A stretch of 64,000 bases of DNA from Psococerastis gibbosa (taxonomy: Eukaryota; Arthropoda; Insecta; Psocodea; Psocidae), in the NCBI GenBank assembly GCA_963971405.1, contig OZ020484.1:14694001-14758000 (forward strand), given 5' to 3'. A model generated the notes under the pieces. That model was not told where the DNA came from, did no database searches, and saw nothing but the letters and a program-made list of their open reading frames with translations. Both the position numbers and the translations under genes were made by a program. Position 1 is the stretch's first letter, and every line of letters begins with the position of its first letter. Of the stretch, positions 32,029 to 60,368 are shown one piece after another.

Positions 32029-35000
32029 ATGGAGGCTTGTAACGCAGTTGAAAGGGAAATAGACAAAGTAATTAATAAATTTTCAGGAATAAATGAACAT
32101 TCGGATAGAATATTATTTGACCTTTCAAAGCACATTGAAGCATTGAAGAAGGAATTAGACGAAAGTACGTATACCTACTTATATACCCTTTTAATCTAGC
32201 CCTTTGTCTATGGGAGTGCATAAAAAAGCTTATTGTATTGTTTACTTGTAGGTCCTGACAATCATGAGTTGACGGCTGGTCAAATTTTGATCATGAAACA
32301 AACAGTAAATAAAGTGAAGGAGACAGTTCAGAGACTGGCGGCAGATCATCGAGACTTGCATAGTACAGTCTCTAAAGTTGGAAAAGCAATTGATAGGGTA
32401 CGTAGAACTACTAATTAGTTAGTACATGGCAGCAGGTAGCTTAATGTAACAGCTGGGCTGTTTCTTCAATATTCTAAATTAGTGATAATTAAAACTACAT
32501 TTGAAATTCGGGTTTTGCTAAAGATGGCCTAATAAATAACTATAAATAATAATAATAAACAACTATAAATATAACAATAAACAACAACAGATGTTCGCTG
32601 TATTGAGTTTTGACTATAGGCTAAAGCCAAAAACTTCAAATAAAAAACAAGAAAAAATGCTAGGGAATTTAAAAAATGAATAGTCATCACTTGTTTCAAA
32701 ACGTTTAAACATTGGTTATAGAATTTTGTTGCGGACTGTGCTACAACTAGCCGAGACGATGTATTTGGAGGGCCAGAGAAAATAGAGATGTTGAATCAAG
32801 TAATCTGCCAGCACTTCTACCGGCAAGGAATGCTAGAAATAGCTGTGGAGTTAGCGAAGGAGGCTGGCATACAAACAGAACCTGGATGTACGGAACCTTT
32901 CACAGAGCTCAATCGGATATTGGACAGTCTCAGACAGCATGAGTTAGGTCCTGCTCTGGAATGGGCTCAAGCTAGAAGAGAATCGTTAGATGCACACAAT
33001 TCTACTCTTGAGTTCAAACTACATAGATTACATTTTATTGGACTTCTGCACGGTGGCTTTGAAAATCAAGCTGAGGCTGTCAAATACGCGCGCACTCATT
33101 TCCATCAGTTTGTAAGAAGGCATGAGACAGGTATGTCTGGATTTTGTCACTTGGAAAGATAAGCAAAAGCAATCAGGGTTGTCTTTTCTGCATGTAAATA
33201 CTAAGACTACATAGATTTTTAAACTTATCTTCGAGTATTTGCTCACGTCAGGGTTCGTCAGAGACCCCTAAGTGACCGCAGTTAGGGAGACAGCTGAAAA
33301 ATAAAGCATAATTGGCGTAAGCCAAAGTAGGTTAAGAAATTCAAACAACTAGCAACCAATTGGCACTACGATACAATGTTGACGATATGTCTGTAGAGAG
33401 GCGCAACATGTTGGAAACCCCAGTTTCGTTTTGGTCCGTCTTTAGGACAAAGGGGATGATACAAAAGTTAAGGGTAAAATGGGGAGAAAGGATTCCCTTC
33501 ACCCATGCCTGTGTTTTACTCAGATAGGTCTCATGATGAATTCTTCCTCATGCCAAAAGACTTACCTACTATGCAGCTATTTGTTTATGAATTGAAATTT
33601 CAATCCAATGGAAATTGGGATAATCTTCATACTGTTTCAAAGCTGCTGAACTGCATTGTTAGTTTAGTATATGACGTACAGCCCATTTCTTCAGCTTTGT
33701 TTTAAATGTATTGACAATTATAATATTTCGCAACGGTGATGTATGAAAAATTGAAAGTGCGTCTTCTTTGGTTTTTGTATAGTTTTTTTTGGTAAACCAG
33801 CCTCGGACGCGTCCGCGTCGATTTGTATACTACCATCTCCCTTTTTTAACCATCGACTATATCGTAGTTAGCCGATAGAACCACTCGATGTATTCTTATA
33901 TATTATCCTTGGGACACTTATATTTTTTTGTATTATTTTCAGACATTCAGATTTTAATGGGAATGTTTGTCTTCTTGCCGCATGGTTTGGCCTCTTCTCC
34001 GTACCACTACTTATTAGACCCTACGCTTTGGGCAGAAATCTATGAGATTTTCACAAAAGACGCCTGTGCCTTGTTGGGATTAAGCGTGGATAGCCCTCTG
34101 TCTGTTAGGTATGGTTATAATAATTAAAATATATACTGTATTTATAAGATATACACGTAATATATATATCTTAAAATCCTAACGCCTTCAGGAGATAACA
34201 TGATAACATTGATGATGGACATACGCACGTGAAATATCGGACAAAGTGTTATTGTTGTTGTTTCCAACGCCTGCTTTCAGCATTTCTGCTTTAAGCAACC
34301 CTGTCAGCCTGGGGGGGGGAGTGAGTCTGTTTGTTAACTTGAGACACCCTAAGGGCAGACTCTTTCACCTCGGAGAAAGGGGAGTTGACTGACAGGGTGG
34401 ACCTCCTGATTATGGTGGATTCCGAACCACTTGGGGAACATGGTAAAGGTAAAGTCACACGATTAAATCGGAGGTGACCAGAACTCGCCACGCACGTAGA
34501 CTGACTGCTATAGTCTCAGCGCGTTATCATGTCCCACCATGTTCCCCTGCCAACGCTGTGGACACTACCAAGTTTGCCGCAGTTTGAAACATGCTCTGCT
34601 CTGATGGATTCAACACGGTAAGGCCGTTGGCAATATATCGGACAAAGTGTTGGCTATATTGGAAATTAAATATTTTCTGTCAAAAGACCAACTTTCCGTC
34701 AACATTTTCTATGTATGGTCTTTGGGGGGTCTGAAGCTACCTACTTGCATTTTACATATCTTAAAGCCGGAGGTGTGGGGGACGTTTAAACAAAACGGGG
34801 ACACTCACACCTACAACACGAGGCACCGGGGAGACCTTGTAAGGCCAGCGCCACGCACAGCCAAGTGAGTGTGAGCGACTGGATTCTATACTACAAGGTT
34901 TCGCCTACCTTAGAAAACTCCCGATTGAACTAAGAGCGGCGAGAAATGCTTCTAACTTCCCTAAATTGCTTGAAACCATCTCTTAGAGAAAGCTTTCTAC

Positions 35001-41814: not shown

Positions 41815-42191
41815 ACTGCCAAGTAACATTTTTTTTTAAATGCCATACCACAAAGGGCAACTCTACTATTACTCTAGGTGGCTTCCGTTACTGATAAGTA
41901 CAAATAATGGTTCAATGAAAGTCTACAATCTATGAGTCACAGCGTTTTTACAACGTCAAAATGGAGCACTAGCTATGCTTAGAAGAATATCAGATTCGTA
42001 GAAGAATCATTTACCTAGGGGGCAATATGAAACAAGTTATCACCAATTACACCACACACAAAAATGTCTCCACTAAAAATTCCCTTATTTACAGCATATC
42101 CAAAAAATCTTTGGCAAACCAATAAGAAACGCCTAGCACTCACCATAAAACAATCATTAACTAATCAACAAAATTAGTCCGAGTTAAAATC

Positions 42192-45100
42192 TTATTCCAC
42201 TTTAAGACGTTTACTGAACTCTTCTTGCTGCTTTTCTTTCCATTCCTTCTTCACTTCAGAGCGCTTCAATTGGCCATCCCTGAAATATAAAATCAAGTTT
42301 AAATTATTAGTGCTACAATTCAATCGCTGTAAGTTGGTCTTGGGGTAGTTTTATATTGCAGTTTGCTCGTTTCAGGTACAAGTTATCGGAGAGGCTAAGA
42401 GTTCGCACAAGAAGAGCAATATTAACAAAATTATATCACCAAAATATGATTTTATTTTATTTTATTATATTTTGGTGGTTTCATGAGGTTTTTTGAAACA
42501 AATTTATATTTCAAAAATTTTTCCTGCTCTCGCATGAATTTCATGTACTTTTTCCTCTCAGTTTGCCAATGCTCCTAATCAGAAACTTGTTGTGAAAGTG
42601 GCATTCGAAAAAATTAAAATGCCATAGAAAGGGCGCAAATAACTAAGTTCAATCTCTTCAGGGAGATATTACAAAATAATTTGTTAACAGAAAGTGACTG
42701 CCGTTTTGACGAAAATCATTAATTCTTTCTTTCTTAGCAGAGAAGATATGAGAAAAAGGTTGGATGAAAAATTAAAAAAAAATTCAAGCTCTCGCATTAC
42801 ACGTACATTTCATCATCTGAAATACCATTGCTTTAGCAAAGCACACTGAAGTGTATTTAAGATTATACACCGATTTTATAGAGTAGAAGTTATATATATA
42901 TATATATATATAGAAGTAAATCAGTCGGGCAAATATCTGCTTTTTGAGAAAGTTTGCATTTTTTATATATTTTTCATCTGACCATTTGCTGCTGCGGAAC
43001 GAGGAATTACTAATTTCGTGATAATGATAGCGTCATCATTTATTTTAAAATATTTTGAATCTCTGCCTTATTATTTAAAAAAGTAAATATCTCACCATAC
43101 AAGGTCGACTAAACCTCCTTGTTCAGCGATGGCATGTTTCACGCGGTTTGCGAAGTCTATCGAACTCTCTCCCTCTTGCTGGTACATCGGCGGCAGATAC
43201 CACACGTCGCAGACGATGGCCCAACTTGTCATCATGCAATACAGGTATTGCAACATGGAATATTTACTGCTGTTCCAAAAAGCATCCCCGAATCGAGGAT
43301 CATACTGCAACATAAATCGCTCACAAATTAGTTTCGTACCTCATCATCGTACACGGTGGGCGATAATTTCCTGCCAACAAACATTATGCCACTGCTATGT
43401 CTCATAAAAAGACAATTGAATAGATTACGGGAGCCCTTAAGTTAACTATGGCCAATAATGTCCAAAAGATAGGTGGCATACATACGACAAATCGTCGTGG
43501 ATGGGGGTTCAAGTGGCAACCACTTAACCGCTAAGACGATGCGCCGGCAAGGCATAGATCGTTAGTTCGAATCTCGCTAAGTCCAGATTTTTCTAGATCC
43601 TCTAATTTCGAGCATAGACACAAACACTTTTTCAAAATCTTGCAATAGGCTGAAAACGGAGCCGAAGAATTGTGCTCCATATTGCGGAAAGCACAAACGT
43701 TTTATGAAGCTCCGTTTTCAACGTCTATCGTGTTTTTTTTCGCATACAAACAATTCAATGAATGTATCCGAATAACCTCTTCAGTCACCTCTGTAGGCAA
43801 TACCTTGAGTTGAGTTGAGTTGAGTTACGACAGGTCACCGATCGCATGATTTACATGATCGCACAAGTACGAACAAGCTACCACTATGCCATCGAAGACC
43901 TTTTTTTTCAGTGTCTTGTTATTATTAGTATTATTTCAGTATCTTGTTCCTGTATGGTTATTCAAGGCATTTCATAAAATATACTCACTTATTTGTGAAT
44001 GCCTAACAGTCCTAATAAGAAATGTAGTGGACCTTCTTTTGATTCTTAATACACCATGCGAATGGTAATTTTTAATAATAAATTAAATTATGATCAGAAT
44101 TTCCATTTTGCTCGAATTTCAAATAATAATAATTACAGGTGCAAAACGTTCTGCGCACTTGACGGTTCAGTCACTTGCATTCTGCTTGTTATTGTTGCGG
44201 GTTAGAACGGTTAGAATGGTCTTCCTGCCCAACTGGTCTCATAGGGTAAAAATTTTGTTTCAAGCCCTATTAATTGTTAATTACCTTAATTGCTACTGGA
44301 TAGACGGTGGACCCAACCTCAAAACTTCCTTTCTTAAATTGCATGACGGAAGTATTGTTGATGCAAGTGCCTTCAGGGAAAATTAGAATTGGCGGGTTAT
44401 TGGGATCGGAAACGTGTTGCTTCAATCGTTTGGCAACTGCATGTCGGTCTTTGGTTTCAGACCGCTCAAACCAGATGTGCGGGGAGGCTCGCGCTAGGGC
44501 GCGTTGTAATATCCCCAAGAAACCGCCATGTCTCTGACCAATCTAGAAGAACAATATTATTAACAAGTTTAAGTCAGCGCCCAACTTCTAATGAGCATTA
44601 GCTGATTTCGGACCAAAGAAATGGTTATTGTTGCTGTTTTGCTCTAACCACAATTCGTTATTTATTAAGAGTGTACATCCCGTAGGAAAGTGGCAGCCCA
44701 AAATTTAATACTTCTTATTTCTTATTTAATTAACTAAGCTATTTATTAAAATATTGGTTCATTTAAGTTATAGAAGACTACTTTATGCATCATATAATAG
44801 GGTTTAATTAATTTTTGGTTTTGTAGTTTTTTCATTGTATCTATTTTACATGAAATTTCAGCCCCCCATTATTTTTTTCAAAAAGCTACGGTACCAAAAA
44901 TTAAAAATACCCTACTATATGATGCATGAAGTAGTCTCATATAACTTAAATAAGCCCAATCCTTAATATCTTGCGTTGTTAATTAAATAAAAAATAAGAA
45001 ATCTGTAAAAACAACGAATTTTGGTGTACTAATTCCCTATGGACGTCCACTCTTAATGCGAATTTTTTAATCAAAACTGCCAATTGATTTTTTAAATGAA

Positions 45101-48100
45101 GTTATGTAAGTGTTTAGAAGTGGAGTTCGGGCAATGATATTGATTGTACTTATCACAGCAACGCCAAATAACATGAATTATGTAAATTCAGATTTGACGG
45201 TACGATTAGATACACGACTGTACATGCACTTTTGGTATCAGAGCTATTGATTGACTCATTCTTGAGCCACTAATCCGCTACAAGGAACATACTAATTCAA
45301 GTAACACGTCGTTAAACCTAATTTTTAACCCAAGCGTTCTTCGTCGTGGCACGGACATTAGTAAACTAAAAATTGTTAAACTAATAAAAAAATATAGGAA
45401 TTGCCGTAGAAAATCAAAAGGAAGTAACAAGGCGCATATTACGGCACATAAATAAAAAAGTTATGAAAAAATGCACGCTACGCCCTTTTCAATTTCTACG
45501 ACGCGAAAAGACAAGATACCCACCAAGGAGTACGTGTGATCGCACGCAAGAACGAGAACATCAATAGGCGATGTATGGTTTGCCACACAAATCCCATTCT
45601 TTGGACGATTTTCAATGTTGTGATACTTTAAGTCACAGGAAAGTGCGCTTGACAAAATCCCAAAGCACATAATGGACACCCATTTATTCAGCCATCTCTT
45701 AAACGGGCCGTCAGGGACATATCCAACAATGGCGGTACATAGCGTCAACCACAGAGTCTGCAATATATATATACGGGCAAAGCATAAACACAGTGAACAT
45801 CACATGGACAGACAAGCAAGTACAAAAGGCAGGCATACAGTATATATACAGGTACACGAGGAGTCGAATAATAAATCAGTGCCCAGCGCGATTTGTCGTC
45901 CCAAAGCTGAAAATCACAACAACAAAAAAACAATTAACAGCTAGCCCTACTAACCAAAGCAAATACATTCTCGGTACCGAGAATCGCAACATCAACAGTA
46001 GTAGTATGGTTTGCAACGCAGATACTAGCAGACTGTGGTTTGAATTCGCGGCGGTGGAAGTCAATGACCACTGAGAGGGAGCGGAGCATTATGCGGAAAG
46101 AAATCATCATGGCCTGACCTGCCAGCCATCTTCTTAATCTTCGCCATGGAATAAGTCCGATGATCCCCATAGTTACCACCAAGAATGCCAGCTAGATTGA
46201 TCATTATTGCACATTTCAAAAATAGTAAGTTTGGCGTATTAATAATAATAATGGTATTAAAACGTTGTTGTTGTTTCCAACGCCTGCTTTCAGCATTTCT
46301 GCTTTAAGCAACCCTGTCGCCCTGGCGGGGGGAGTGAGTCTGTTTGTTACCTTGAGGCACCCTAAGGGCAGACTCTTTCACCTCGGGGGAAGAGGAGTTG
46401 ACTGACAGAGTGGACCTCCTGATTATAGTGGATTCCGAACCACTTGGGGAACATGGTAAAGTCACACGATTAAATCGGAGATGACCAGGACTCGACACGC
46501 ACGTAGACTGACTGGTATAGTCTCATTGTATCATGTCCCACCGTGTTCCCATGCCAACGCTGTGCACACTACCAAGTTTGCCGCAGTATGAAACATGCTC
46601 TGCTCTGATGCATTCGACATGGTAAGGCTTTGCATTATAAATAACATAGGTAGGGCCACTTTTAAACCATAGTTGGCAACGAATCGATTTTGGAGACATA
46701 CGATCTTTACTAACTTAAACTGAGAGTGAAAACAATATGCCAACAAAAACACTGGCAAGTTTTCATCTTCCTTGAACTGGCTAAAGATTTGAGATGGTAT
46801 TTTCCTCTCGCCAACTAAAACTAACGCTTTAAGTTAAGTCGTTCGCTATGTAAACATAGTTCCTTAACGTCCCTTTTTTATTAACAGACACATATTAGAA
46901 CTATTACAACGGAAAGGAGAAAGGAAGACATGGAAAAATGGACGGAAACGGTATGGAACCCGAGTTTCCACCCTGTCGGGGTGGTACGCAGATCACTGCA
47001 CCAATACGTCGCCGTCGAAGTCTACACGTCTTCCTGTACTAAGAAGCTCTATTGACAACGTGTATATGCACTCTATCTAATGTACGTAGGTTTAGACCGA
47101 TATATTTGTAACTATGATGCCTAGCGTTGCATATCGGCGAGCTACTTTAAGCGATAACACGCTCTGATTCACCTGCCTATAGAGTCTTTCTACAAAATTA
47201 AAAAGGTGCCCTGTACCTCTTTCTTACATGTTACAAGTTTTAGCCAAAGTATTTGATGAATCCATTCCTTTCTTAGCTTACTTTTGTGTGATATTTACCC
47301 CAAAAAAGCAGATGACTATTCTCAATGGAAGAAGAAAGGCATATCGCATAAGAAAACCAAACGCCCAGATAACTGTCAGCCGCCAGCTGATGAATTCGTA
47401 GTGGTGGTTGGTGCGCGTCAGCAGGTTCCACGACCGCAATTCCTCTGCTTCGAAACGTGACGTCACCTGGTCCTCTATGATGGCTTCGACTCCCGTCCGG
47501 ATGTAAGCGAGGCAGTCGGAAAGTTCAAATTCCCGCCTTTCTGTCATGTCTTCCTGTTCTTCTTTCTTTTTCAATTCAGAGTATTGTGCCTGCAATAGAT
47601 AACCAATTTCATTGACTTCGGAGGCCAAATAACTAAAAAGTCAAAGCACAATGAGGTTCTATAGGGACAGTTTTGGTCACTAGGTTCGCTGACGACAAAC
47701 CGATATCCATATTATTCAAAATGGCCCCCGTTTGCATGTGAAAGCTAAGCTCTTAGCATCTAATTAATTCTTTCAATATTTTTTATAAAATTTTTACTAT
47801 GTCTGGACCTTATTTAGCTGCATATAATTTAACATATATATTCTCCATGATTTATATAAAAATATCACTTTAAAATAATACATAAATAAAATAATTTATA
47901 AAATAGTATTGAGGCTTATGGAAAAATCAACGCTTTGATATCAGTGCAACTGGTGCTGCCATCTACAAAATGACGTCACAAATGAACCTCATAGACAATT
48001 ACGAAATGAAGCCATTACCTGCATTATACAAAGGATACTAGAATAGATTGAGTGAACCCATACGCTAACTATGGACAACAGTTATCAAAAGATAGGTGGC

Positions 48101-48858
48101 AATAGACAAATAGTGGTGGATGGAACCGTGATTGGTTGACAAAATCACATACAATACTCATTTTCATGCATCACCTTTTCAAAATCTTGCAATAAATTTG
48201 AAACAAAACTGAAATGTCCACGTCATTAGTGATCATTTCACTATCTGTTATTTTTAACATGGTTACCTATGCAAAGCATTTTATAAATAATCACATGCAA
48301 ATGGAAAAGGTTTTTCTTTCTTTTCATTAAGATAATAATTTTATTATGAATGGTTTTTTGTTTTATTAATAACATTGATTAAAATGGAAATGGTCCAAAT
48401 AACTTTCATTTTGACGAAACTTTGTATTTTCTTCTCCATAGAAAAATCACAGACAGAATGAATGACAGATCAGACATAATTGCACAAGGTGCAAATTCAA
48501 AATTCGTAGTCATGACTACAAATTTTCAACACAATAGAATGGGCCAAATTGAAATTGATGGAGTAGAAACAGAGAAGCTATAACCAAGGTAACATTACGC
48601 TCACTTCCCAAGATAGTTCATATCCCATGGCCAGAATGCAAATTCAAATAAGCAACGTAATAAGCTGCAATACAATGCGGGTCACATTATAATGCATACT
48701 CTATTATGATAAATCGTGATCCAAAGCTAACAAAAACAAGCTAATTTAAAGCCACGCGGTCTCACGCTTAAATTAACATATGAAATTCAACCACAAACGA
48801 TTCATAAATCACCACATATATTGTAATGTAAATGAATAAATTTACTTTTATTCTTCTT

Positions 48859-48895
<37 letters not shown>

Positions 48896-51800
48896 CCGCT
48901 AAAAACCCTGAATGTTTAAAATATAGATCTACAGTATAACGAATGCATTTTTTATTAGTTTTTCACTGTACAATACAATACAATATAATATATATTTCCT
49001 TTAATTATACAATACATGTAAAGTATAATATAAAATCGTCAGAGTATCGTCAGTAGTTCCGTCATTGTCATAGTGCCTCAGTGACAGTATAAAAAGCTTT
49101 CTCTAAGAGATGGCTTCTAAGCAATTTAGGGAAGTTAGAAGCATTTCTCGCCGCTCTCAGTTCAATCGGGAGTTTTCTAAGGTAGGCGAAACCTTGTAGC
49201 ATAGGATCCAGTCGCTCACACTTGGCTGTGCGTGGCGCTGGCCTTACAAGGTCTCCCCGTTGCCTCGTGTTGTAGGTGTGAGTGTCCCCGTTTTGTTTAA
49301 ATGCCCCCCACACCTCAGGCTTTAAGATATGTAAGATGCAGCTAAATATGTACAAACTTGGGGCTGTCATGATTTTTAATGATTTGAAGTGAGAGCGACA
49401 ACTGTCACGGGGTCCCAGTTTTAGCATGTATCGCACTCGCCTCTTTTGAAGCCTGAGTACAGCGTCCATGTTCCCTACGGAGGTCCCTCCCCAGGCCAAT
49501 ATGCCGTAGTTTATATGGCTCATTACAAGTGAGTGGCAAGCCTGGAGAGTTACCTCTGGAGGACACACAGAGCTAAGGCACCTGACTACAAAGAGGCCAC
49601 TATTTAGTTTTTTTAATAGTTCAGCCACGTGTTTATTCCAGTAAAATTACCAAATACTGCGAAGTACAAAAGCAAAATGAACCCAGTAGAAAGGAATGCT
49701 TTGTTTCATGAGGAATTTGGCAGCCCGAACTTTAATACTTTTTAATTTTTATTTAATAAACCAAACATGTTATTAAAGATTTGGCTCATCAAAGTTGTAG
49801 AAGACTACTTCATGCATCATATAATAAGATATTTTTAATTTTCGAAATTGTAGTTTTTTTCAGAAACATGCAAATATTTTATAAACAATAAATTTTCATG
49901 TATAATCGATTTTATTTAAAAACTATAAATACCTTAATATATGATGCATGAAGTAGTCTTCTATAACTTTGATGAGCCAAATCTTTAGTAACATACTTAG
50001 TTAATTAAATAAAAAATAAAAAGTATTAAATTTCGGACTGCCAATTTCCTACGGGCTGTACACTCTTAAAAGAAAGCGTTGAACTTACGCCGGCGACGTG
50101 ATTGGCAGTTGGAAGTTTAAGATTGTTATTGCCAATACTGTTCATCTCAGGGTCCGGCAGGAGGATGGTCCCCCTCGATATGACCATACTGTTGTTCTTG
50201 ACGAGTGCTGCCGGTTTGTTGTTGTTGGCCTGCCCTCCCCCCGCATCCTCATCCTCTTCGTCTTCCCTGCTGCCTTCCTTCCATTGCTCTGCAATGTCGA
50301 TGTGTTGCTTCCCATACTGAAACATTCCATTTTTTTTTTTTTTAAGGCGCCAGGTCACGTTTATCGCATATGTGCCAAAGACTAAATTATGGCAATTAAT
50401 GTGAAACAAGAGGGCTTCATACTAGTTTTAAGAGTTTAATGTTAAATTATCCAACTGACCATCCCTACGCTGCCACCAGTTGCGTTTTTCGTTTTCGGGG
50501 CTCTTAGACGTGAGACCCGACAGACCTTGCAGACCTTGTCGTTCTTTGTTCATCATCAAGTGCTCGAGTGTGCATAATGTAAATCGGTGAGTGTCTAATA
50601 CATGTATTGTATAAAATTTAATCTAAAAGCACATTTACTTCAGCAGCCCTTGTCCCTGGGAAGGTTAGGTGCTCCACCCATACTAGGCTCTTTTTTTTAA
50701 AAGGTTAATCGCATACAAACAATTCAATGAATGTATCCGATTGACCTCTTCAGTCGCCTCACTAAGTTACGTAATAGGTACTTGTGTCGAGTTACGACAC
50801 GTCTCCGATCGCATGGCGTGTAGAGACTCGCACAAGTACAAGCACGCTACCACCTGGCCATCGAAGTCGATGTTGGTTCCCGGGATCTTATAGTATGCAC
50901 ATTTTATAGTCAATTATAGCAGCCAGCAGCCTAGAAATGTGACCCCCAACATTAGTGTGCTGGAGAAAGGCTGAAAGTGAGATGAAATTGTTAGTTTCGT
51001 CTCCCAGGATTAATGGGAGTGTGGATTTTACATCGTGCATTGTTGTCTGGTAGATCGGGCATTCTGTGAGTATGTGTTTTACAGTAAGTAGGCAAGCACA
51101 TTGGTTGCATTGGGGCGGTAGGTAGGTGCTCATTAGACCAGGTATGAGTGAGTCAATAAATTATTTATTTTGTTCTTAATACAGTCATTTAGTATGAAAT
51201 GGGGGGGGGGGGGTTACCTGGAAAGATTTCCAGTAGCTTTGAAATTTGGTTGTTTGTTTATTTCGATGTGCTGTTTTTGAAACCCGACTTTGCCACCTCG
51301 CATCTTGTTAGTCATCTCAGAAAAACCGCCAAATGTTCTGTCTTGTTCGCTGTTTTTTAAGGTTTTACCGAAACAAATGGACCGAGGGAAATTAGTGCGA
51401 ACGTTTTTTTCAACTCAGGAAACATGAAGGGAAATTCGGTACCATATTTTAGCTGATGAACACTGCTACACAACAATACTGCCGTATATACATAAATAAA
51501 TATATATATAACCACTTCCCAGCTATTTCGCAAGAACAAATGAACAATGTGAAATTTTCCTACTTTTCAGAAAAATGTTTGAAATGGTCGTCTTTCTTAG
51601 GGAGTATACAAGCCATATAGACTTGATCATGGTTTCTAAATATTAAAATTAAGTATGAAAAGAGTATCTCCCCTCAACGTATTCAAAAACAAATATTATA
51701 AGTTTCTCCTTAGTCAGCGAACCACTGTCACCGGTTGATGAAGGCAAGGCTGCGTTTGAATGTGTGAGCAAATGTGTGTGTGTGAACGTAGATGGTAGCG

Positions 51801-51977
51801 AATGTGAATTAGTGTGACTGTTATCTTGAATGGAAGGTATGACTGATAGTCGGTATGAATGTAGTTTACAAAATTATATTTTTCAATTAAACTATCGTTG
51901 ATATGTACAGTTAGGTGTAAGAGAGGGCCATAGGCACTAATCTCGCTGTATCTACATTATTATTGTTTCAATAAAGA

Positions 51978-52014
<37 letters not shown>

Positions 52015-55000
52015 TTGTATTAATATAATCCCTAGCAGCAGCCTGATCGAGGTGATTATAATAACGGTATTTATTTAATCCCCTAGTAATAAAAATGTAA
52101 ACAAGATAATTTTATAATGGAAAGTGCTATTCAAAATTTGTTGGTTTACAGTTATAATCCTAGGGTATTTATTTAACCCCGGTATTATAATCGCCTCGAT
52201 CAGGCTGCTGGTGGAGTAACCAGTTAGGGAGGGGGGGGGGGGGTAGTTATTATTATTTTGTTTGAATCACAAATCTCTGGCAGTGTCAGTCACAGCCATT
52301 AATAAGACAATGCGTTGTAGTGCCACATTAAATTAAAATACTTAACACTTAATGGTTGCAATACTTAATTGCGAGAATTTCAAATTTTTCAAAACAGATA
52401 AGAAGCTGACACAGAAGCTAATCATGCGAATTATCCGGGTACACAGTCCATAGGTCTACCGTTTACTATTGACATCATCCAGGTTTGACGCAATAAGACG
52501 CGATGTAACACAGACCGGTTCTAGTGGGGCCCTTGCCATAAAAGCAAGTCACAAGCGCCTCATCACTATACAAATAGCCTAGTAGTAGTGGAATGAATCT
52601 AGTTTCAATTAAATCCTAGCGTGCGGGTAAGATGAAATCAGTCAATAAATAAAATGAGGCTTATAGGAGTCTATAGGTGTGAGTGACATTTTTTCAAATT
52701 TGGATGCAATTATCCTAGTGCAGGGTAGGGATCCAAATTTTTACAAATGTATCGATTCTTGTAACGATACCGGTATTGAATGGTAGGTATTGATACTGGT
52801 ATTGTATTGAAAGAAAAGTATCGATACCATGAGGTATTGGTATCGAATGGAATGCCAGCTCGCAGGGTTGCATCCATGGACCCAGGGTATCAAGGGGCCT
52901 TTGAAAAATTCTGGTAACTTCTGTAAATAAATAAATATTCTAAAATAACTATTAACTACTAGTATAATGTTAGACGCATATGACTAAAAATAACTTAAAT
53001 TCAATATTAAAATAATGCGCAAAATTAACCTAGACCAACCTCTATACTTAGCTTACGAAAGAACACTCACACAGCAGGTTGGTGACTAATTTGAAAATTA
53101 AAAATTAAAAAAAAATAGCGGGAAAAAGTTTAGTTGTGTGGTAGGTATTATTTGATTCAATACCAGCAAATAGGTATCGATACCTGCAAGTATTGAATGA
53201 AAAGTATCGGGTATCAATACCAGTGGTATCGAAAGATAATTATCGATACTAGTATTATATCAGTAGTATCGTTGGATCCCTAGTGCAGGGGTTCTGAAAC
53301 GGTGAGTCATGGCTCCCCAGGGATAGTCAGTCGATTAGCTCAAATCAAAAACGTCAAATTCCCTCCATTTTGTCTAGACACCTCAATTGTAGGCCCATGC
53401 ATAAAAACGAAATCATTTCTAGTACTTAGCAAGCTACTTAACTATACAGTAAGCTTACGAGTAGTAACAATTGTGGAGTGGAAATTACAAAATGGGCATC
53501 TATGTGTAAAATATTAAAACACTGTAGTGCATAGGCTACTTAAAAATTACACAACCCATTGACATCGTATTTAAGATAATAACACATTTCACATTGTTAG
53601 ATGATATCTATTGCCAATTTAGTGATAAGACAATTCAATCAACTCAAGAACAGGTCGAAATTTAGGAAGTTTAGGCGTATGGACTAATGGATGATCCTCT
53701 TTCTTAGCAACATGCCCGACAGTCACGTTTTTCCGCTGCCGATATTCTAAATCACAAAGCTTTCCTTATACTACGTATAAATTGGAAAGCAATAAACCCC
53801 AATGAAGTAACTTTACTTTTAAGTTACGTTAAAGTAGAATAGATTAATATTACGGAGTGTTTTGCATATGGCAATTAAGTGTAGCATATGCGTAACATAG
53901 GTATAACTTACTTTCAGTGGTATCAAAGAACAAAATGAATTTCGTTTGCTGGGAGAGAGCAATGGTAACACCGGTATTAAAATGGGTTAGATAGTTATTC
54001 TTTATACGTCATGTTAGGCCTGCAGTTCCAAGAGCGCAGGCTTCAGTACTTGACTCAGTGCGACTCAGTAATTGGCTACTCGTCACTCAACAGCTGTTTT
54101 CCGTCTAATTCCGGACACAATGACCTACGTGTCCTCCCAGTAGGATTCTCCATATTCTCCAGACCGTCTATTCTCTTAAAACATTTTCATAGCAGTTTTA
54201 TTAGCAGTTACTAAATTCTTCAAGCCCACTCTATGGCACTCTGCCTCCCAGTTACTTATCTAAATAACCATGTTCTATGTGCCTGTTCAATCAGAGAATT
54301 ATTTGCCTACTGATTTAAAACTGGGATAAATTGTACGCCTTGAGGTCAAGGGGTGCAAGTGACAAAAATAAACATTCGAGAGAATTGAGGCTAAAGTTTG
54401 TAAGTCAATTATTAATTAAAAAATGAACGCGCGTAAGCCGTATTTCAGAGCAAGCATTTGTTTTCCTCATGAATTGTCTTTGATCTTATGGTCTATGGGA
54501 CAATAAGGACAAAGAACCGGTCCGAGTTCACTCGAACATGCTTTCCAATTTATAAATTAGTAGATATAGACATGTGTAATTTCATAGTAAATAATTTCCC
54601 TATGGTTAAATTTCAGATCCCTCGAGGGGGGGGGGGGTCCACCTCAATTTATTAAAAACCCCTTAATACTTAATTGCATATTCTGGAACGAACAGACCAA
54701 TACATTGTAACAGTAGTAACAATGGCACATGGCACGTAATGTTTTGGAGCGTGAATTTTCTATAATTCAAAAAATAATTTTTTGCACAGAAGCAAATATT
54801 TTTTTGGGAATGCAACCTGTACGTTTTAGTTATCCTATTGAACACCTAAAACATACCTGAAGGTAGAAATCATCGATAGAAATGTTTCGCAGAAAAATTC
54901 TTTTTTAGTCATTTTTCATTAAAATTTAGTTATTTTTATTTTTTTACCCCCAGAAGCAAACAATCAAGGGGTAAGCGACCCCACGCATTTTGTGAATATT

Positions 55001-58000
55001 AATAACGACTACAATATATGTGAATTTAAAAGAAATCGTTGGAGCCATTTTTGATAAATATTTTTTTATACGTATTTTTTTAGTTTTGAAAATAAAACCC
55101 CCCTAAATTGAGTTGGCCCAAAATAGAAAAAACTTTTTCCGAGGTATGAGTTTTTTGAACCTATATGCATAATTTCATCAAAATCGGCCGAGTAGTTTGC
55201 CCGGAAATCGATGAAGAGACAGACATACAGACAGACAGACAGACAGAGCAACAGACAGACCTTTCGTATAAAACTTTTTTGGGTTCCTGGGACCTCAAAA
55301 CGTGTAAATCTGTTGAAATCTCGGAATCGAAAATTTCGACCATCACTACGTATAAATTGGAGAGCAAAAATAATTACAACATTTTGAAATCTAATTCATT
55401 GGAGATATTAGTGTCCATTGGACACTGCCTAGTCCGAAAAGGATGGAGCATTTTCCCGCCCGCAGCGTGTTGAACATTATCCCGAAACATTGAAACAGTT
55501 ATGTTTCTTATTTAATAGTAATGGAAAATAAATATGCTGCAGTTGTGCCACAGACCCTCCATGATGATAAGGCGCGGTAAAAGTAAAAGTAAGTAATAAA
55601 TATGTTTTATTTGAATCAATGCCGTGCCCAGGGGGGTAGACCATGGGGTCCGGACCCCCCCCCCCCCCAAATCAAAACCTGAGCACGGCCTTGATTTGAA
55701 TGAAACAAATAACTCTATGGTTACAATGGTACAACTCTCATCCAACTATACACATACTACTATATCATGGGCGGAAAATGGGGGGTCCTGCCAGCTCTGG
55801 CCAACCCCCCCCCCCCCCAGCCTCCCAGGTCTGGCCTAGCCCTCCAAGCCCCCAGTCCTGTCCCTGCCCCCCTAGCATCCTAAGTAACTATAAAATTTAT
55901 ACGTACTGTCCCATCCATTAAGCGAATAAAGTCCCAATTATTTTATAGGTCACTATGTCACTATGTTAGATGTATTTATGAAAAAATAATAATAACTCAA
56001 GTCTTAAAAAAATCTTCGTCTGTAAAATCTAGCCAATTATCTCGAAGAAATTCTCCGGGCCACCATTGTTTAGAGTATATTCTTCGCCTTTAATATCTAA
56101 CTGTTACTGCTCTCAAAACGCGTAAAACCCCAATATTTCAGGGATATTTTTCAAAAAAATTCACCCGGGAGAGACCCCCGGGCCCCTCCCCCCTATCCAG
56201 CTATTATCATCGCCAGTGAAATCTAAACGTTACTACTATCAAAATGCGTACAATCCCACTATTACAAGCCACATTTTAAAGAAATTTCACCCAAAGGAGA
56301 CCCCCGGGCCTCAGAGACGGACGCAGTGACCGGCACTGCGGCCAATTGCCCCCCTCCCCTTTGGAAATCAGTTATATTCTTTGCGTCTAAAATCTAATTG
56401 TTACAGCCCTCCAAATGCGTAAAACTCCACTATTTCAGGCATATTTTCTAAAATTTTCACACGTGGGAGACCCCCGGGCCCCCCTTGTTCGCAATTGTAT
56501 TAATTGCCTGTAAAATCTCTAAAGTACTGCTATCAAAATGCGTAAATTCAAACTATTTCAGGTCTGTTTACTCTCCCCCCCCCCCCTTTCAGGTCTCCTG
56601 AACCCTCTGGCTCCTTCGCAAAGGACACTAAGGTCATTAATTTTAAGCTGTATGTATGACGTTCCCCCCCCCCCCTTCGAAACCCTATCGTTACGGGGCG
56701 GCCCTACCGGTGGAGCGAATGCTTAAAATGTCAATATTTCACTGCTGTTAAAATGCGTAAAACCCCACTATTTTTCCATTATATTTTCAATTTTTTCCTC
56801 CGGGGGAGACCCCCGGCCCCCCCTGTTTCTTGCAATATGAATAAGCATTATTGCTGCATTATTGAAGAAAAAAAAGTTCTATTTAGCAGAGATGGGACAT
56901 TCGAGCCCACCAAAAAAAATCACTCCTGAGGTTTATTGGTAGGTTTTTTCAATGGCTGGTCATTGGAAGCGTTACATGCAAGCAGAATTTCAAAAATATA
57001 TAGGCTACTGGTATGTTTGGCGGGAAGTGAATGTCTCCTATACATATAACTCTAACTATAGTCATAATAATAATGTGTGAGCCTACCCCTCTTTTGAGAG
57101 TCCATCGCACACCAAGAACAGTAGCAGCCAATGTGGCCACGATTACCGATATTTTCTGCCAACAATACATAAGGGAACACGCCACTGCTGACTGACCATC
57201 ACAAAGCCAATGAGTGGTCGGTGATAACACTAATATACAAAGATACATCGCACTGACCCCAAGCATAGTTTTCATTCAATATTCATAATATAAAATACAA
57301 GATATAGCCATCGATATCGCCGGTATATCATATTACTGTCTGACCAGGAATTAAAAGCCACAAAACACTCAGTGGCGGCCCGAGGCAGGTACATGAGGTG
57401 CGGCCTCACCTGTCGCGAAGGGCTCCAAACTTTGGAAATATTATGTAAATAAACTAGGCCTAAAATTCATTAAAAGTAATTTTATTTTACCTAAAAACCG
57501 ATTTGCTAACATTTAGTCTACGCCTACATTTAATAGGAATTTGTATGGATGATAGTTATGTCTTGATTGAAATCACATTTTCCTTAACTTTGCACCTGTG
57601 GCAATTCTACTTCGGGTCTCCACTGAAAACACCAAGTTTCTTCGAGTACAAGTCTCTACACACCATGCGATCGGAGATCTGTCGTAACTCGACGTATTAA
57701 GTTTTATTAAGTTATTAAGTATTAAGTTACTTAGTGAGGCGACTCAAAAGGTTATTTGGATGCATTCATTAAAGTTTTTGCGATTAATCTTTAAAATAAA
57801 TTGATGCTTTCTCTACAGCATATGATTTAGACTAGTCAAAATCGAAATTTGAACTGCATTAAAAACTCGTATATAACTACTTTTGGTTACACACAGCAAC
57901 GCTATAAGCTATTAAGTATTGATATAATCTACGGTAAGCTCCATAAATTAAAAAATAACAGATATTCTTGTGTAGGCTACTAAAAATTACAATAGGAAAC

Positions 58001-59272
58001 AACAGTCCTGAATTGGACTCGAGGGATTAGCTTTGTCGGCATGGAGATAGTGTAGAAGTGGAACAGATAAAATCAAGGTAGGTATTGGAGCATCCATGCA
58101 TATGTTATTATGTACGGTATAGGTTCTTTCAAGCATTTCAACATGACAAATGCTGAAAAAAATGTACTTGTCATATCTATTTAATCCCCGAGAGGTAGTA
58201 CAATTTAAAAGTGTAATTAAATAGAAGATACTGTAACCTATCAGTTGTTGATGTTAACTGTATAAATCGCGGACTGTACACCCATTGGCGTAGCCAGGAT
58301 TGGAATGTTGGATTAGGGGGAGAGTTGCAATTTTTTTGACTGTATAGACTACACGTAGACAATTCGTCAATTCGACTAGCCTCTTCGTTTGAGAATTTTT
58401 TTCAAGTAACTTAAATTTTGTTTGAATTTGTTCGATATACATTTTAATTAGTTTTTAGTGTAGACTGAGCCTTAAAGCCAATTTTGCAAGCGCACCGCTC
58501 TGCTACTAACTTCTGCTACTGAGACTAATATTAATTGATTGATTTCAGATTCAGGTACAATACAATTTGAAAACGCCTGTCAGGTGCAGTGTTTTAAACT
58601 CTGAGTTGACAACTACCATTTTAAGGAAAATATAACATTTAGGGGCTGCCATTTAAAATGTTCAATCATGGATGTAATGGCTCATTGAAGGTTCAATTAA
58701 GCTAGTCACCCTTTGGCCTTCATTGAAAATTTAATTCGCGTTAATTGTACAAGGTAGGCTATGGTAAGTTTACCGCAACACATTCATCTGTCAAAGCAAC
58801 GGATATTTTTCTTGCTAAAATAAATCAATAAATCCTGGTTAGCGAAGAACCAGATTTATCATATCGATCACCTATAGGCTGTGTCGCCCATGACTTACGA
58901 TCCAAAACTTTCATTCCTAGGTCTATTTCAGAAAGTCAGCCATCCAAATCATTATATTTTAGACGAAACTATTGTTAATAATCTCATACTACATTGACAC
59001 AAAAGAAGCTGACCGATTTCATCCGATGAAGAGGTCTCCCACCCGGGTAGGCACAAAATTGTTAACGAACCTTAATGCATCATATTTATGCCAACCATAA
59101 TCATTACGGTTACACTTACCTCAAATATCTTCAAAAGAATGGTGACGTATAGTCTTCGAACTCCAAGTGACTTGTTAATGGAAGCGAGAAATATCATACC
59201 CAGAAGAAACATTAATAACGGAGTAAAAAATAGAGAAAATATAAAAGAAACAACAGACACTAACAACGCCAT
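42192..59272 (-). CDS. GPAT4: Glycerol-3-phosphate acyltransferase 3/4, 7 exon positions with a duplicated alternative exon 4
   Basis: Exons in transcript order: 59272-59120, 50316-50089, 47589-47299, then 46191-45955 (4b) or 45757-45524 (4a), then 44542-44285, 43304-43096 and 42279-42192 (stop at 42194-42192). Joints are phase 0, except the last, which is phase 2. The product is 486 residues with 4a or 487 with 4b. The family is an ER membrane enzyme that acylates glycerol-3-phosphate to lysophosphatidate in glycerolipid synthesis. Visible motifs with 4a: hydrophobic N-terminus (1-40), membrane-rich 185-245, NHTSPID at 284-290, FERSE at 327-331, FPEGTC at 357-362, VYPVAIK just after. The ending is GGLVDLVWDG plus a lysine/glutamate-rich tail, as in vertebrate GPAT3/4. 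The ATG at 59272 is the only suitable one before the hydrophobic segment. Intron 1 is about 8.8 kb and full of repeats. The symbol follows vertebrate naming; GPAT3 and GPAT4 cannot be separated here. Confidence 0.93.
42891..42912 (+). repeat. TA microsatellite
   Basis: Eleven TA units in the intron between GPAT exons 6 and 7. Confidence 0.9.
43518..43604 (+). repeat. SINE family S1 fragment
   Basis: CTTAACCGCTAAGACGATGC, TTAGTTCGAATCTCGC and the tail CCTCTAATTTC. Upstream of GPAT exon 6, opposite strand. Confidence 0.65.
43735..43890 (-). repeat. Repeat family S3 copy
   Basis: Reversed: AACAATTCAATGAATGTATC, AACCTCTTCAGTCACCTCTG, a TTGAGTTGAGTTGAG expansion and GACAGGTCACCGATCGCATG. Confidence 0.7.
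44665..45056. mobile_element. TTAA-flanked palindromic element C3
   Basis: TTAA on both sides; ends GAGTGTACATCCCGTAGGAA and (reverse) GAGTGGACGTCCATAGGGAA. More diverged than C1, but the GACTACTT and GCATCATATAATAGGGT arms are kept. It lies between GPAT exons 4a and 5. Confidence 0.8.
45524..45757 (-). CDS. GPAT4: Alternative exon 4a of the GPAT gene (NHTSPID version)
   Basis: A 234-base exon of 78 codons, acceptor TTGCAG before ACTCTGTGG and donor TTG|GTGGGT, phase 0 at both ends. It carries GYVPDG, ENRPKNG and CVANHTSPID, matching the vertebrate GPAT3/4 sequence more closely than its neighbour 4b about 200 bases upstream in the transcript. It is therefore likely the ancestral version. The exon ends in YSL and the next begins IGQRHGGF, giving the family's GQ-HGG junction. 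Confidence 0.9.
45955..46191 (-). CDS. GPAT4: Alternative exon 4b of the GPAT gene (NHTTTVD version)
   Basis: A 237-base open exon of 79 codons, with acceptor ...ATCTAG before CTGGCATTC and donor TTG|GTTAGT, phase 0 at both ends. It aligns along its whole length with exon 4a, with one extra residue. Shared features are the hydrophobic start, the RW-L step near residue 22, and CVANHT followed by V/I-D-V. The acyltransferase motif I is complete as NHTTTVD. Because both exons are a multiple of three and phase 0, either can join exon 3 to exon 5. By eye they share about one third of residues. The reading frame has no stop, which argues against a dead duplicate. That the two are spliced as mutually exclusive is inferred. 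Confidence 0.85.
46265..46640 (-). repeat. SINE-like family S4 copy
   Basis: It matches 34251-34634 almost throughout: GCCTGCTTTCAGCATTTCTG, GGCAGACTCTTTCACCTCGG, ATTCCGAACCACTTGGGGAA. It lies in the GPAT intron between exons 3 and 4b. Confidence 0.75.
48861..48891 (+). repeat. T homopolymer, 31 bases
   Basis: A run of 31 T, perhaps the reversed poly-A of the LINE copy at 49.1 kb; about 70 bases separate it from the last recognisable LINE sequence. Confidence 0.85.
49068..49628 (-). pseudogene. Non-LTR retrotransposon reverse transcriptase C-terminus
   Basis: An open frame of 186 codons, truncated at its 5' end. It reads SHINYGILAWGG, then LQKRRVRYMLKLGPRDSCR, SLKIMTAPSLYIFSC and [14 protein letters not shown]. 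This series is the conserved C-terminal part of CR1/Jockey-type LINE polyproteins, after the catalytic core. A stop ends the frame at TEAL and an AT-rich 3' tail follows to about 48960. It lies in GPAT intron 2 on the same strand. It is a dead 5'-truncated copy. Confidence 0.85.
49705..50069. mobile_element. Palindromic element C4, left end decayed
   Basis: The right end is TACACTC followed by TTAA (50066-50069), and the arms with GAAGACTACTTCATGCATCA and TTTGGCTCATCAAAGTTGTA are clear. The left terminus no longer matches. It ends about 20 bp from the donor of GPAT exon 2. Confidence 0.75.
50705..50880 (-). repeat. Repeat family S3 copy
   Basis: Reversed: CGCATACAAACAATTCAATG, GACACGTCTCCGATCGCATG and TGGCCATCGAAGTCG. 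In GPAT intron 1, next to a LINE fragment. Confidence 0.7.
50888..51133 (-). pseudogene. LINE C-terminal fragment of the RNase H/zinc-knuckle type
   Basis: An 81-codon open frame with PPQCNQCACLLTVKHILTEC followed by PIY. This CxxC...H...C pattern is the extreme C-terminus of Jockey/I-type LINE polyproteins. The remainder is lost. It lies in GPAT intron 1, same strand. Confidence 0.75.
51979..52014 (+). repeat. TTA microsatellite
   Basis: About twelve ATT units, following TTTCAATAAAGACA, the likely 3' end of a retroposon. Confidence 0.9.
52036..52210. repeat. Hairpin element with CAGCAGCCTGATCGAGG ends
   Basis: The arms CAGCAGCCTGATCGAGGTGA and (reverse) CAGCAGCCTGATCGAGGCGA enclose TATTTATTTAA and ATTTTATAATGGAAAGTGC. 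Its core recurs near 3583-3650 and in reverse near 20520-20580. It follows a TTA microsatellite. Confidence 0.65.
52726..53282. mobile_element. hAT-like miniature element with repeated GGTATCGATACC motifs
   Basis: The 8-bp direct repeat GTGCAGGG lies at 52718-52725 and 53283-53290. The ends TAGGGATCCAA and TTGGATCCCTA are inverted. Both flanks inside are packed with GTATCGATAC-type half palindromes. No transposase is present. Confidence 0.85.
53748..53796 (+). repeat. Family A terminal fragment
   Basis: The last roughly 45 bases of family A only: ATCACAAAGCTTTCCTTATA, then ACTACGTATAAATTGGAAAG and CA. Confidence 0.7.
54510..55375 (+). repeat. Family A non-coding element, copy 5
   Basis: Full-length copy in intron 1 of the GPAT gene. 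It starts AAAGAACCGGTCCGAG and TGCTTTCCAATTTAT, has the CAGA array near 55220-55260 and ends TATAAATTGGAGAGCA. It lies opposite to the direction of GPAT transcription. Confidence 0.85.
55617..55693. mobile_element. hAT-like miniature element, only 77 bp
   Basis: A perfect 8-bp duplication ATTTGAAT lies at 55609-55616 and 55694-55701. Ends are CAATGCCGTGCCCAGG and (reverse) CAAGGCCGTGCTCAGG. Between them lies little more than a hairpin and a long C-run. Confidence 0.85.
56110..56830. repeat. Degenerate tandem array with GACCCCCGGGCC units
   Basis: At least four units share AAAATGCGTAAAACCCCACT, TATTTC-A, a T-rich stretch, CTCCGGGGGAG-like and GACCCCCGGGCC motifs. GACCC starts lie near 56173, 56299, 56469 and 56816, so the spacing is about 126-175 bases with one divergent double unit. 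The unit resembles the interior of the hAT-like element at 23133. It is in GPAT intron 1. Confidence 0.7.
57590..57800 (+). repeat. Repeat family S3 copy
   Basis: AAGTCTCTACACACCATGCG, GATCGGAGATCTGTCGTAAC and AAAAGGTTATTTGGATGCAT. Confidence 0.65.
57801..59119. other. GPAT intron 1, nothing recognised
   Basis: The first part of the 8.8-kb intron, next to exon 1. A possible hAT-type end (CATTGGCGTAGCCAGGATTG) is at about 58283. No gene. Confidence 0.45.
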
Positions 59273-59320
59273 CTTGAAAACTACCAAAACCAAACTAAAC
59301 TTTTATCGTATATCGTAAAC

Positions 59321-60368
59321 GTAAACGAGCGACTCGTGATTTGTGAACGGACTCTAGCAGTTTCACCAACAAAACAATAACGAAATTTGTAATAGAACTG
59401 TAGTTGTTGTTGTTGTAGTTTTTTTTTTATAGAATGGCATAAGATTCTTGGGCAGCATCATGATGCATAATGCAGCATACCCTATGGTAAAATTCTTATC
59501 TGGATTTTTCTGTAATCAAATGAAATTAAAACTTCGCTCATTTCAGGCAGGCAATGGTTTAAGGGGATGCGTATATAGACTAGGGTGGAATACTCCGCCA
59601 TTTGTTTTTCATTTCCTGCAATGTTGTGTATTAATGGTTGGACGCATCAAAAATTTAACTTCTACCAAAATAAATATATTAAGTTTTCAATAGCCGGAAT
59701 GTCCCATCTCTTTTACATACAACTCCAACAATAATCAGGAGATACTACTATTCCACCACAGTCCACAATACGAAGTACGATGACGAGGGTTATTTTCTTA
59801 ATGCAGAAATTTAATTAATTTTTGGCCATATTGAGGATAAAAATGGTTTCATTATTAGTATAATTCAGAAATGACAGCACTCTGACAGCAATTTTAAATG
59901 TGAGAGATAAGAAGACCTGAGTGCATAACGTAGCCTAGCGCATTAAAAAGATAAGCTACAGTACCTATATAGGACACTATGAATTTGGAACTTTTGCATT
60001 TTTCGATATCAATTTTAATTAGTTTTAGTGTAGACTGAGCATGCACAGGCCTTACACTTAAAGCCAATTTTGCAAGCGCACCCCTCTGCTACTGAGACTA
60101 ATATGATGTTGACCGCAGATGTTGACGAAACGTTTGGAAGTTCACTTTCATTTCGACCACGGCCGGATTCTAGTGATTCTTCAGTCGACTCCGGCCATGA
60201 AAGCCTTTGCAGTAATTACAAAATAGAATATAAAGAATAATATCCCTTCTTAACAAATTCTACCGTCATTGGTGACGGAAGTTTGAACTTTTGAAGTTTC
60301 CAGTTTTCTGAACGCTCCCTTATTCTGCGAAACTTCCATGGTCTAGGTCTCTTCTGCTATTTGAAAAC
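59321..60368. promoter_or_regulatory. Shared upstream interval of GPAT and ATP synthase e
   Basis: The start codons at 59272 (minus) and 60369 (plus) diverge from here, so both promoters should lie within about 1.1 kb. I see no clear TATA box. Short repeated pieces are present: AGTTTTTAGTGTAGACTGAG-like sequence at about 60020 also occurs at 58450, as does CCAATTTTGCAAGCGCACC. The promoter call is inferred from gene layout only. Confidence 0.45.

Follow-up and report, generated by a model that had tools for sequence, protein, structure and literature searches.

A tandem pair of motif-I exons in a predicted GPAT3/4-type acyltransferase gene of Psococerastis gibbosa

Triglyceride synthesis begins with a step catalyzed by GPAT3/4 acyltransferases. 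The membrane hairpin of GPAT4 serves as a main model of protein movement from the ER to lipid droplets. The stretch of DNA analyzed here (64 kb; hereafter, the window) carries on its minus strand a complete predicted gene of this type in which the exon encoding acyltransferase motif I is present twice, as exons 4a and 4b. The question is whether one of the copies is a relic, or whether the gene yields two enzymes that differ in the exon chosen.

A GPAT3/4-type gene with two motif-I exons

The exon model, predicted from sequence alone, runs from an ATG at 59272 to a stop at 42192 and consists of eight exons separated by GT-AG introns throughout (Table 1). Exons 1–5, including both 4a and 4b, each have a length that is a multiple of three and are in phase 0. 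The original prediction of two phase-0 exons, of 79 and 78 codons, that align end to end was borne out at the coordinates listed for 4a and 4b, and the spacing between them is exactly 197 nt. The alignment contains a single one-residue gap and 25/78 identical residues (BLASTP: 25/77 identical, E = 5e-18); at the nucleotide level, 119 of 234 aligned positions differ (0.51). Each exon also contains, as had been proposed, motif I (NHTTTVD in 4a and NHTSPID in 4b) together with a hydrophobic segment, and the FPEG block said to be common to both forms sits in constant exon 5.

Table 1. Predicted exons of the GPAT3/4-type gene and the intron between the two alternative exons (slashes mark the ends of the exon)
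Feature	Position in window	Strand	Description
Exon 1	59120..59272	-	ATG start, 51 codons, phase 0 end; gtagttttcaag/ATGGCG...TTTGAG/gtaagt
Exon 2	50089..50316	-	76 codons; tttcag/TATGGG...GCCGGC/gtaagt; least certain exon, without domain support
Exon 3	47299..47589	-	97 codons, constant; predicted hairpin arm 1 (W196, W202), hinge R209-P215-R217, start of arm 2 at its end
Exon 4a	45955..46191	-	237 nt, 79 codons, putative divergent alternative; arm 2 LAFLVVTMGIIGLIP then WRRLRRW; NHTTTVD (H286, D291); ...caatctag/CTGGCA...GCTTTG/gttagt
Intron between 4a and 4b	45758..45954	-	197 nt
Exon 4b	45524..45757	-	234 nt, 78 codons, putative canonical alternative; arm 2 TLWLTLCTAIVGYVP; NHTSPID (H285, D290); ...atattgcag/ACTCTG...TCCTTG/gtgggt
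Exon 5	44285..44542	-	86 codons, constant; WFERSE and FPEGTCINNT; PF01553 positions 47–132, 68.4 bits
Exon 6	43096..43304	-	209 nt, phase 2 end
Exon 7	42192..42279	-	includes stop codon

The introns around the pair have features of their own. A decoy 3′ splice site AG with a good pyrimidine tract, ttttttgttgttgtgattttcag, was noticed by eye 48 nt into the 197-nt intron (45907–45954, minus strand); checked by hand, splicing to it would shift 4b out of frame. An inverted repeat (44712–44832 and 44880–45000), with 121-nt arms that are 80% complementary and 47 nt apart, lies in the intron that separates 4b from exon 5. It is probably a transposable element; a similar sequence was seen by eye near 49760–49960.

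The assignment to the GPAT3/4 family and the relative standing of the two exons can be read from the motifs. Table 1 of PMC6353168 lists VANHTSPIDVLVL as motif 1 of Drosophila GPAT4 (DmeGPAT4), VANHTSPID in both GPAT3 and GPAT4 of mouse and human, and VANHTSMID in motif 1 of the thraustochytrid PLAT2. Motif 1 of exon 4b is VANHTSPIDVLVL, the same as the DmeGPAT4 entry of that table in 13 of 13 letters. The later motifs WFERxE, FPEGTCIN and YPVAIKY, read in exons 5–6, match the published table as well (PMC6353168). IFPEGTCIN is identical to that of the known family members (Drosophila GPAT4/CG3209, human GPAT3 and GPAT4), where a hydrophobic hairpin likewise precedes the motif, and PHIWFERSE and TVYPVAIKYD are identical to, or one letter from, entries in Table 1 of PMC6353168. 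In addition, the present gene includes a further motif-I exon, 4a, which is divergent and reads VANHTTTVDVAIL. Its N, H and D are kept and 8/13 residues are identical to those of 4b, while Thr replaces the Ser of NHTSPID, a residue that the table shows for each of the five metazoan GPAT3/4 entries and also for PLAT2 (NHTSMID), and Thr also replaces the motif-I Pro of the five metazoan entries (PMC6353168).

Domain searches recovered the full PF01553 domain with either exon, at 90.0 bits for the 4a isoform and 102.7 bits for the 4b isoform (cut-off 23). Taken alone, exon 4b scored 28.4 bits and exon 4a 18.9 bits, the latter below the cut-off; with neither exon, the motif-I part was lost and the match was confined to positions 46–132 (64.7 bits). 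Given the identity of the 4b motif to that of fly GPAT4 and its better PF01553 scores, 4a is the divergent copy and 4b the canonical exon. The doubt that had earlier been directed at 4b was, on the same two grounds, misplaced.

Among solved structures, exon 4b alone had no match at E<=1, and a 262-residue query (4b to the end) had 18 matches, most of them to TPR or designed proteins, with no solved GPAT3/4 evident; the one acyltransferase among the 18 was a 1-acyl-sn-glycerol-3-phosphate acyltransferase (5kym, E = 0.013). A 164-residue query made of 4b and exon 5 found no relatives in viral or genome contigs, neither of which is a eukaryote collection. When the same genome contigs (again, not a eukaryote collection) were scanned with a DNA pattern encoding FPEGTCINNT, there were 0 matches, and the single match of this pattern in the viral contigs was discarded, as no GPAT-like frame was seen by eye among the 9 ORFs listed there.

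Probable mutually exclusive use of exons 4a and 4b

Exons 4a and 4b are neighboring homologous exons of similar length, in the same frame and with compatible splice sites, the features by which PMC3228551 recognizes a mutually exclusive pair. Homologous neighbors of equal phase and similar length with canonical splice sites are likewise typical of tandem mutually exclusive exons in general, of which PMC6071210 counts 126 clusters for D. melanogaster; 102 of these consist of two exons. What sets the present pair apart is the content of the swapped block, namely the catalytic motif together with a portion of the membrane hairpin. The predicted isoforms are 487 aa long with 4a and 486 aa long with 4b, each with a single stop, located at the end. 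We consider mutually exclusive use likely and the best explanation of the pair.

How often would such an arrangement be met among exons of another kind? According to section 13 of PMC3228551, these features are shared, in a per-transcript count, by 90 of 16,180 neighboring exons on the Drosophila X chromosome that are not mutually exclusive, corresponding to 6 of 1,705 genes; the same source gives 28 annotated mutually exclusive exons on that chromosome. Because the annotated mutually exclusive exons there are also few, this base rate is supportive, not decisive, and because it leans less to one side when genes are counted instead of exons, we rate mutually exclusive use no higher than likely.

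A different outcome would be that the exons are not mutually exclusive at all, either because some or all transcripts contain 4a together with 4b or because 4a is a cassette exon. With both exons the frame is kept and stays open over 565 aa, and double skipping of 4a and 4b is likewise in frame, their lengths being multiples of 3. We looked for the exclusion devices listed in PMC6071210 and saw no sign of them in this gene. Frame or NMD as the enforcing device is ruled out, since with lengths of 237 and 234 nt both the both-in and the both-out products stay open. By inspection, no mixed U2/U12 sites were seen in the gene, all sites being GT-AG with U2-like ends, and it is unlikely that the 197-nt intron is too short to splice and forces exclusion in this way. 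As for competing intron pairing, the duplex energies of three intron pairs did not go beyond those of dinucleotide shuffles (the observed energy was reached by 6/40, 4/40 and 18/20 shuffles), a weak test given that it used whole introns of one species. Exclusion may depend on a regulatory protein or on some local RNA element.

The missing device counts in favor of double inclusion, as do the 6 fly X genes that have such exons not annotated as mutually exclusive (PMC3228551). However, a protein containing both exons would have to fit 79 extra residues, including a further membrane arm, inside a compact acyltransferase domain, and would carry the second arm and the motif-I block twice each, ahead of a single FPEG block. 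Exons of this kind outside mutually exclusive pairs are, in addition, rare by the per-transcript and per-gene counts given above. Inclusion of both exons, or use of 4a as a cassette exon, is therefore unlikely in our estimation, and mutually exclusive use remains the preferred reading.

Probable origin and maintenance of the exon pair

A tandem exon duplication in the GPAT3/4 gene, with both copies intact and each having the catalytic N, H and D, is supported by the observations described so far. It could nevertheless be that 4a is a disused or decaying copy and that 4b alone is spliced into mRNA. Such a fate would fit the canonical character and higher scores of 4b, the absence of Ser and Pro from motif I of 4a, and the splice sites, since both the acceptor and the donor of 4a are the weaker of the pair. 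Scored with a generic matrix, all four donors tested were in the top 7% of GT sites on the minus strand of the window, with the 4a donor lowest of the four; the 4a acceptor has a weak pyrimidine tract (7/16) and stands at the 41st percentile of AG sites.

Against decay, 4a at a nucleotide difference of 0.51 still reads through in phase 0, keeps the splice dinucleotides at its two ends and has N, H and D in place. We simulated neutral change with 4b as the ancestor, applying 200 substitutions (about 0.51 nucleotide difference) in 20,000 runs with no indels and a transition bias (kappa) of 2. The frame stayed open in 914 runs; it was open with both H and D kept in 32, open with at least 25 identical residues in 18, and open with at least 25 identical residues and both H and D in just 1 of the 20,000. 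Under this simple model, neutral drift explains 4a poorly. The differences between 4a and 4b are also distributed unevenly over codon positions (39/31/49 of 78; chi-square p=0.015), and the identity is concentrated in motif I (8/13 versus 17/65 elsewhere; Fisher p=0.017). The dN/dS ratio of the pair, about 0.34–0.45, is indicative only, because dS is saturated (NG86 2.04, LWL85 1.53). Taken together, we regard decay of 4a as quite improbable, slightly more so than inclusion of both exons. An artefact of assembly, or a recent and meaningless local copying event, is hardly credible as the source of the pair: the arrangement is indeed tandem, but an assembly duplication would be near identical, which a pair differing at 119/234 nucleotides is not, and just one of the three families of direct repeats of at least 20 nt in 44000–48000 joins 4a and 4b, by 36 nt in the motif-I codons.

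The genome offers no further copies of either exon at the thresholds used. In a search of 409 Mb in 68 contigs, 4a and 4b each matched only self and partner (E<=1), and tblastn against 42000–59400 of the window revealed no third exon copy (E below 0.1). The only other genome match of exon 5, at C12:48005128, is 39% identical (35% over a wider alignment) and looks, from how it aligns, like a more distant acyltransferase, presumably an LPCAT-like one. A PF01553 search of the genome returned 18 matches in all. Judging by the searches with 4a, 4b and exon 5, the gene described here looks to be the only one of GPAT3/4 type in the genome. Four PF01553 matches fall within 22 kb at C1:690667–712194, possibly a tandem array of acyltransferase genes.

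The reading that best accounts for the locus overall, to which we assign a probability of roughly three in four, is that the motif-I exon was duplicated in tandem long ago in the sole GPAT3/4-type gene detected, and that either 4a or 4b would be joined to exons 3 and 5, both of them constant, yielding a pair of full-length acyltransferases of the ER and lipid droplets. The 4b form would be the standard GPAT3/4 enzyme. The 4a form would be a variant with N, H and D kept, TTV in place of SPI, another stretch before the motif and another second hairpin arm.

Predicted consequences for the membrane hairpin and the active site

The original prediction held that the two exons encode different membrane segments. 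This is correct exon by exon, but the segment turned out to be just the latter half of a predicted hairpin: arm 1 and the Arg-flanked Pro hinge are supplied by constant exon 3, and most of arm 2 by exon 4. In the 4b isoform, arm 2 is IVICFFG/TLWLTLCTAIVGYVP (the slash marks the exon junction), with W227 midway along it; its counterpart in the 4a isoform is IVICFFG/LAFLVVTMGIIGLIP, where position 227 is Phe and the basic WRRLRRW follows. The mean Kyte-Doolittle value of the first 15 exon residues is 2.45 for 4a versus 1.49 for 4b, and the charge of the following stretch of 26 residues is +6 versus +2.

The hairpin of GPAT4, known as 'LiveDrop' (aa 160–216 in Drosophila), is sufficient for lipid-droplet targeting (PMC5035145, PMC4969576), and this targeting relies on tryptophans and basic residues (PMC13278972). 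Among the hairpin features given in a review are a Pro hinge flanked by Arg and a Trp in mid-arm (PMC12687460). Mutation of the three LiveDrop tryptophans did not prevent access to droplets but reduced confinement there; combined with mutation of basic residues, it abolished targeting (PMC13278972). The 4b isoform would resemble LiveDrop in its two hydrophobic arms, Arg-flanked Pro hinge and arm tryptophans (W196, W202 and W227), whereas the 4a isoform differs in having Phe at 227; the correspondence is one of features only, not of letters. By inference, the hairpin of this gene would correspond to LiveDrop.

Since the swap replaces arm 2 and with it turns a mid-arm Trp into Phe, the idea that exon choice affects placement between ER and droplets becomes sharper. 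One Trp-to-Phe change alone may do little, however, because LiveDrop mutants of three tryptophans still reach droplets. It is conceivable, though less than probable, that the 4a isoform, which would lose a Trp and gain basic charge, partitions differently between the ER and droplets, in an uncertain direction.

At the active site, the swap keeps N, H and D, changes SPI between His and Asp in 4b to TTV in 4a, and alters the residues before the motif. As 4a lacks the conserved motif-I Ser and Pro, its enzyme may be weak or inactive; we lean toward both isoforms being enzymatically active. A shift in acyl or acceptor substrate choice between them might follow from the altered residues. That exon choice couples the active-site block (His/Asp) and arm 2 of the lipid-droplet hairpin in a single swap is a more speculative and rather doubtful suggestion. 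If it were true, splicing by tissue or stage would set both the product and its site, ER versus droplet, in arthropods with a single GPAT3/4 gene. More generally, two natural isoforms that are otherwise identical but diverge in the catalytic motif and one arm of the hairpin would lend themselves directly to experiments on triglyceride synthesis and on protein movement from the ER to droplets. They would also be a case in which a single gene may cover tasks that are shared out between GPAT3 and GPAT4 in vertebrates.

Mutually exclusive exons are also known from metabolic enzymes such as PKM1/2, ketohexokinase A/C and ACSL6, the last with its gate-domain exons. The swaps in these three affect regulatory or substrate-gate regions, whereas here the His/Asp motif block and a membrane arm would be exchanged. 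In these enzymes, as in fly Pfk, another metabolic enzyme with mutually exclusive exons (PMC6071210), the choice of exon adjusts the enzyme with no need for another gene, and the 4a/4b pair would be alike in this respect. Closer to the present case, CG3209:4 appears in the top-regulator column of Table 1 of PMC4603746, within a network of exons whose inclusion fluctuates during Drosophila development. By its notation this is exon 4 of fly GPAT4, which suggests alternative splicing near this place in Drosophila. The kind of exon swap proposed here is well known; in open-licence main texts, we found no such report for a GPAT3/4 enzyme and no description of mutually exclusive exons in GPAT4/CG3209. 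The fly lists are largely in supplements, and a prior listing of CG3209 among mutually exclusive exons is possible. In cattle, a splice-affecting mutation of GPAT4 has reportedly been described.

The window and the genome contain several other features. An open frame of 345 aa without stops (61520–62557, plus strand) with HTH_Tnp_Tc3_2 and DDE_3 domains represents a Tc1/mariner-type transposase. A 192-aa open frame at 49068–49646 (minus strand) resembles, by eye, the end of the reverse transcriptase of a non-LTR retrotransposon, with no Pfam match at E<=0.01. Another open frame, at 32722–33162 (plus strand), has a CTLH domain (PF10607, 69.2 bits) and is, we assume, probably an exon of an RMND5/GID-complex gene. 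Finally, contig C1 has long (TTAGG)n runs near its end, which we take to fit an arthropod telomere.
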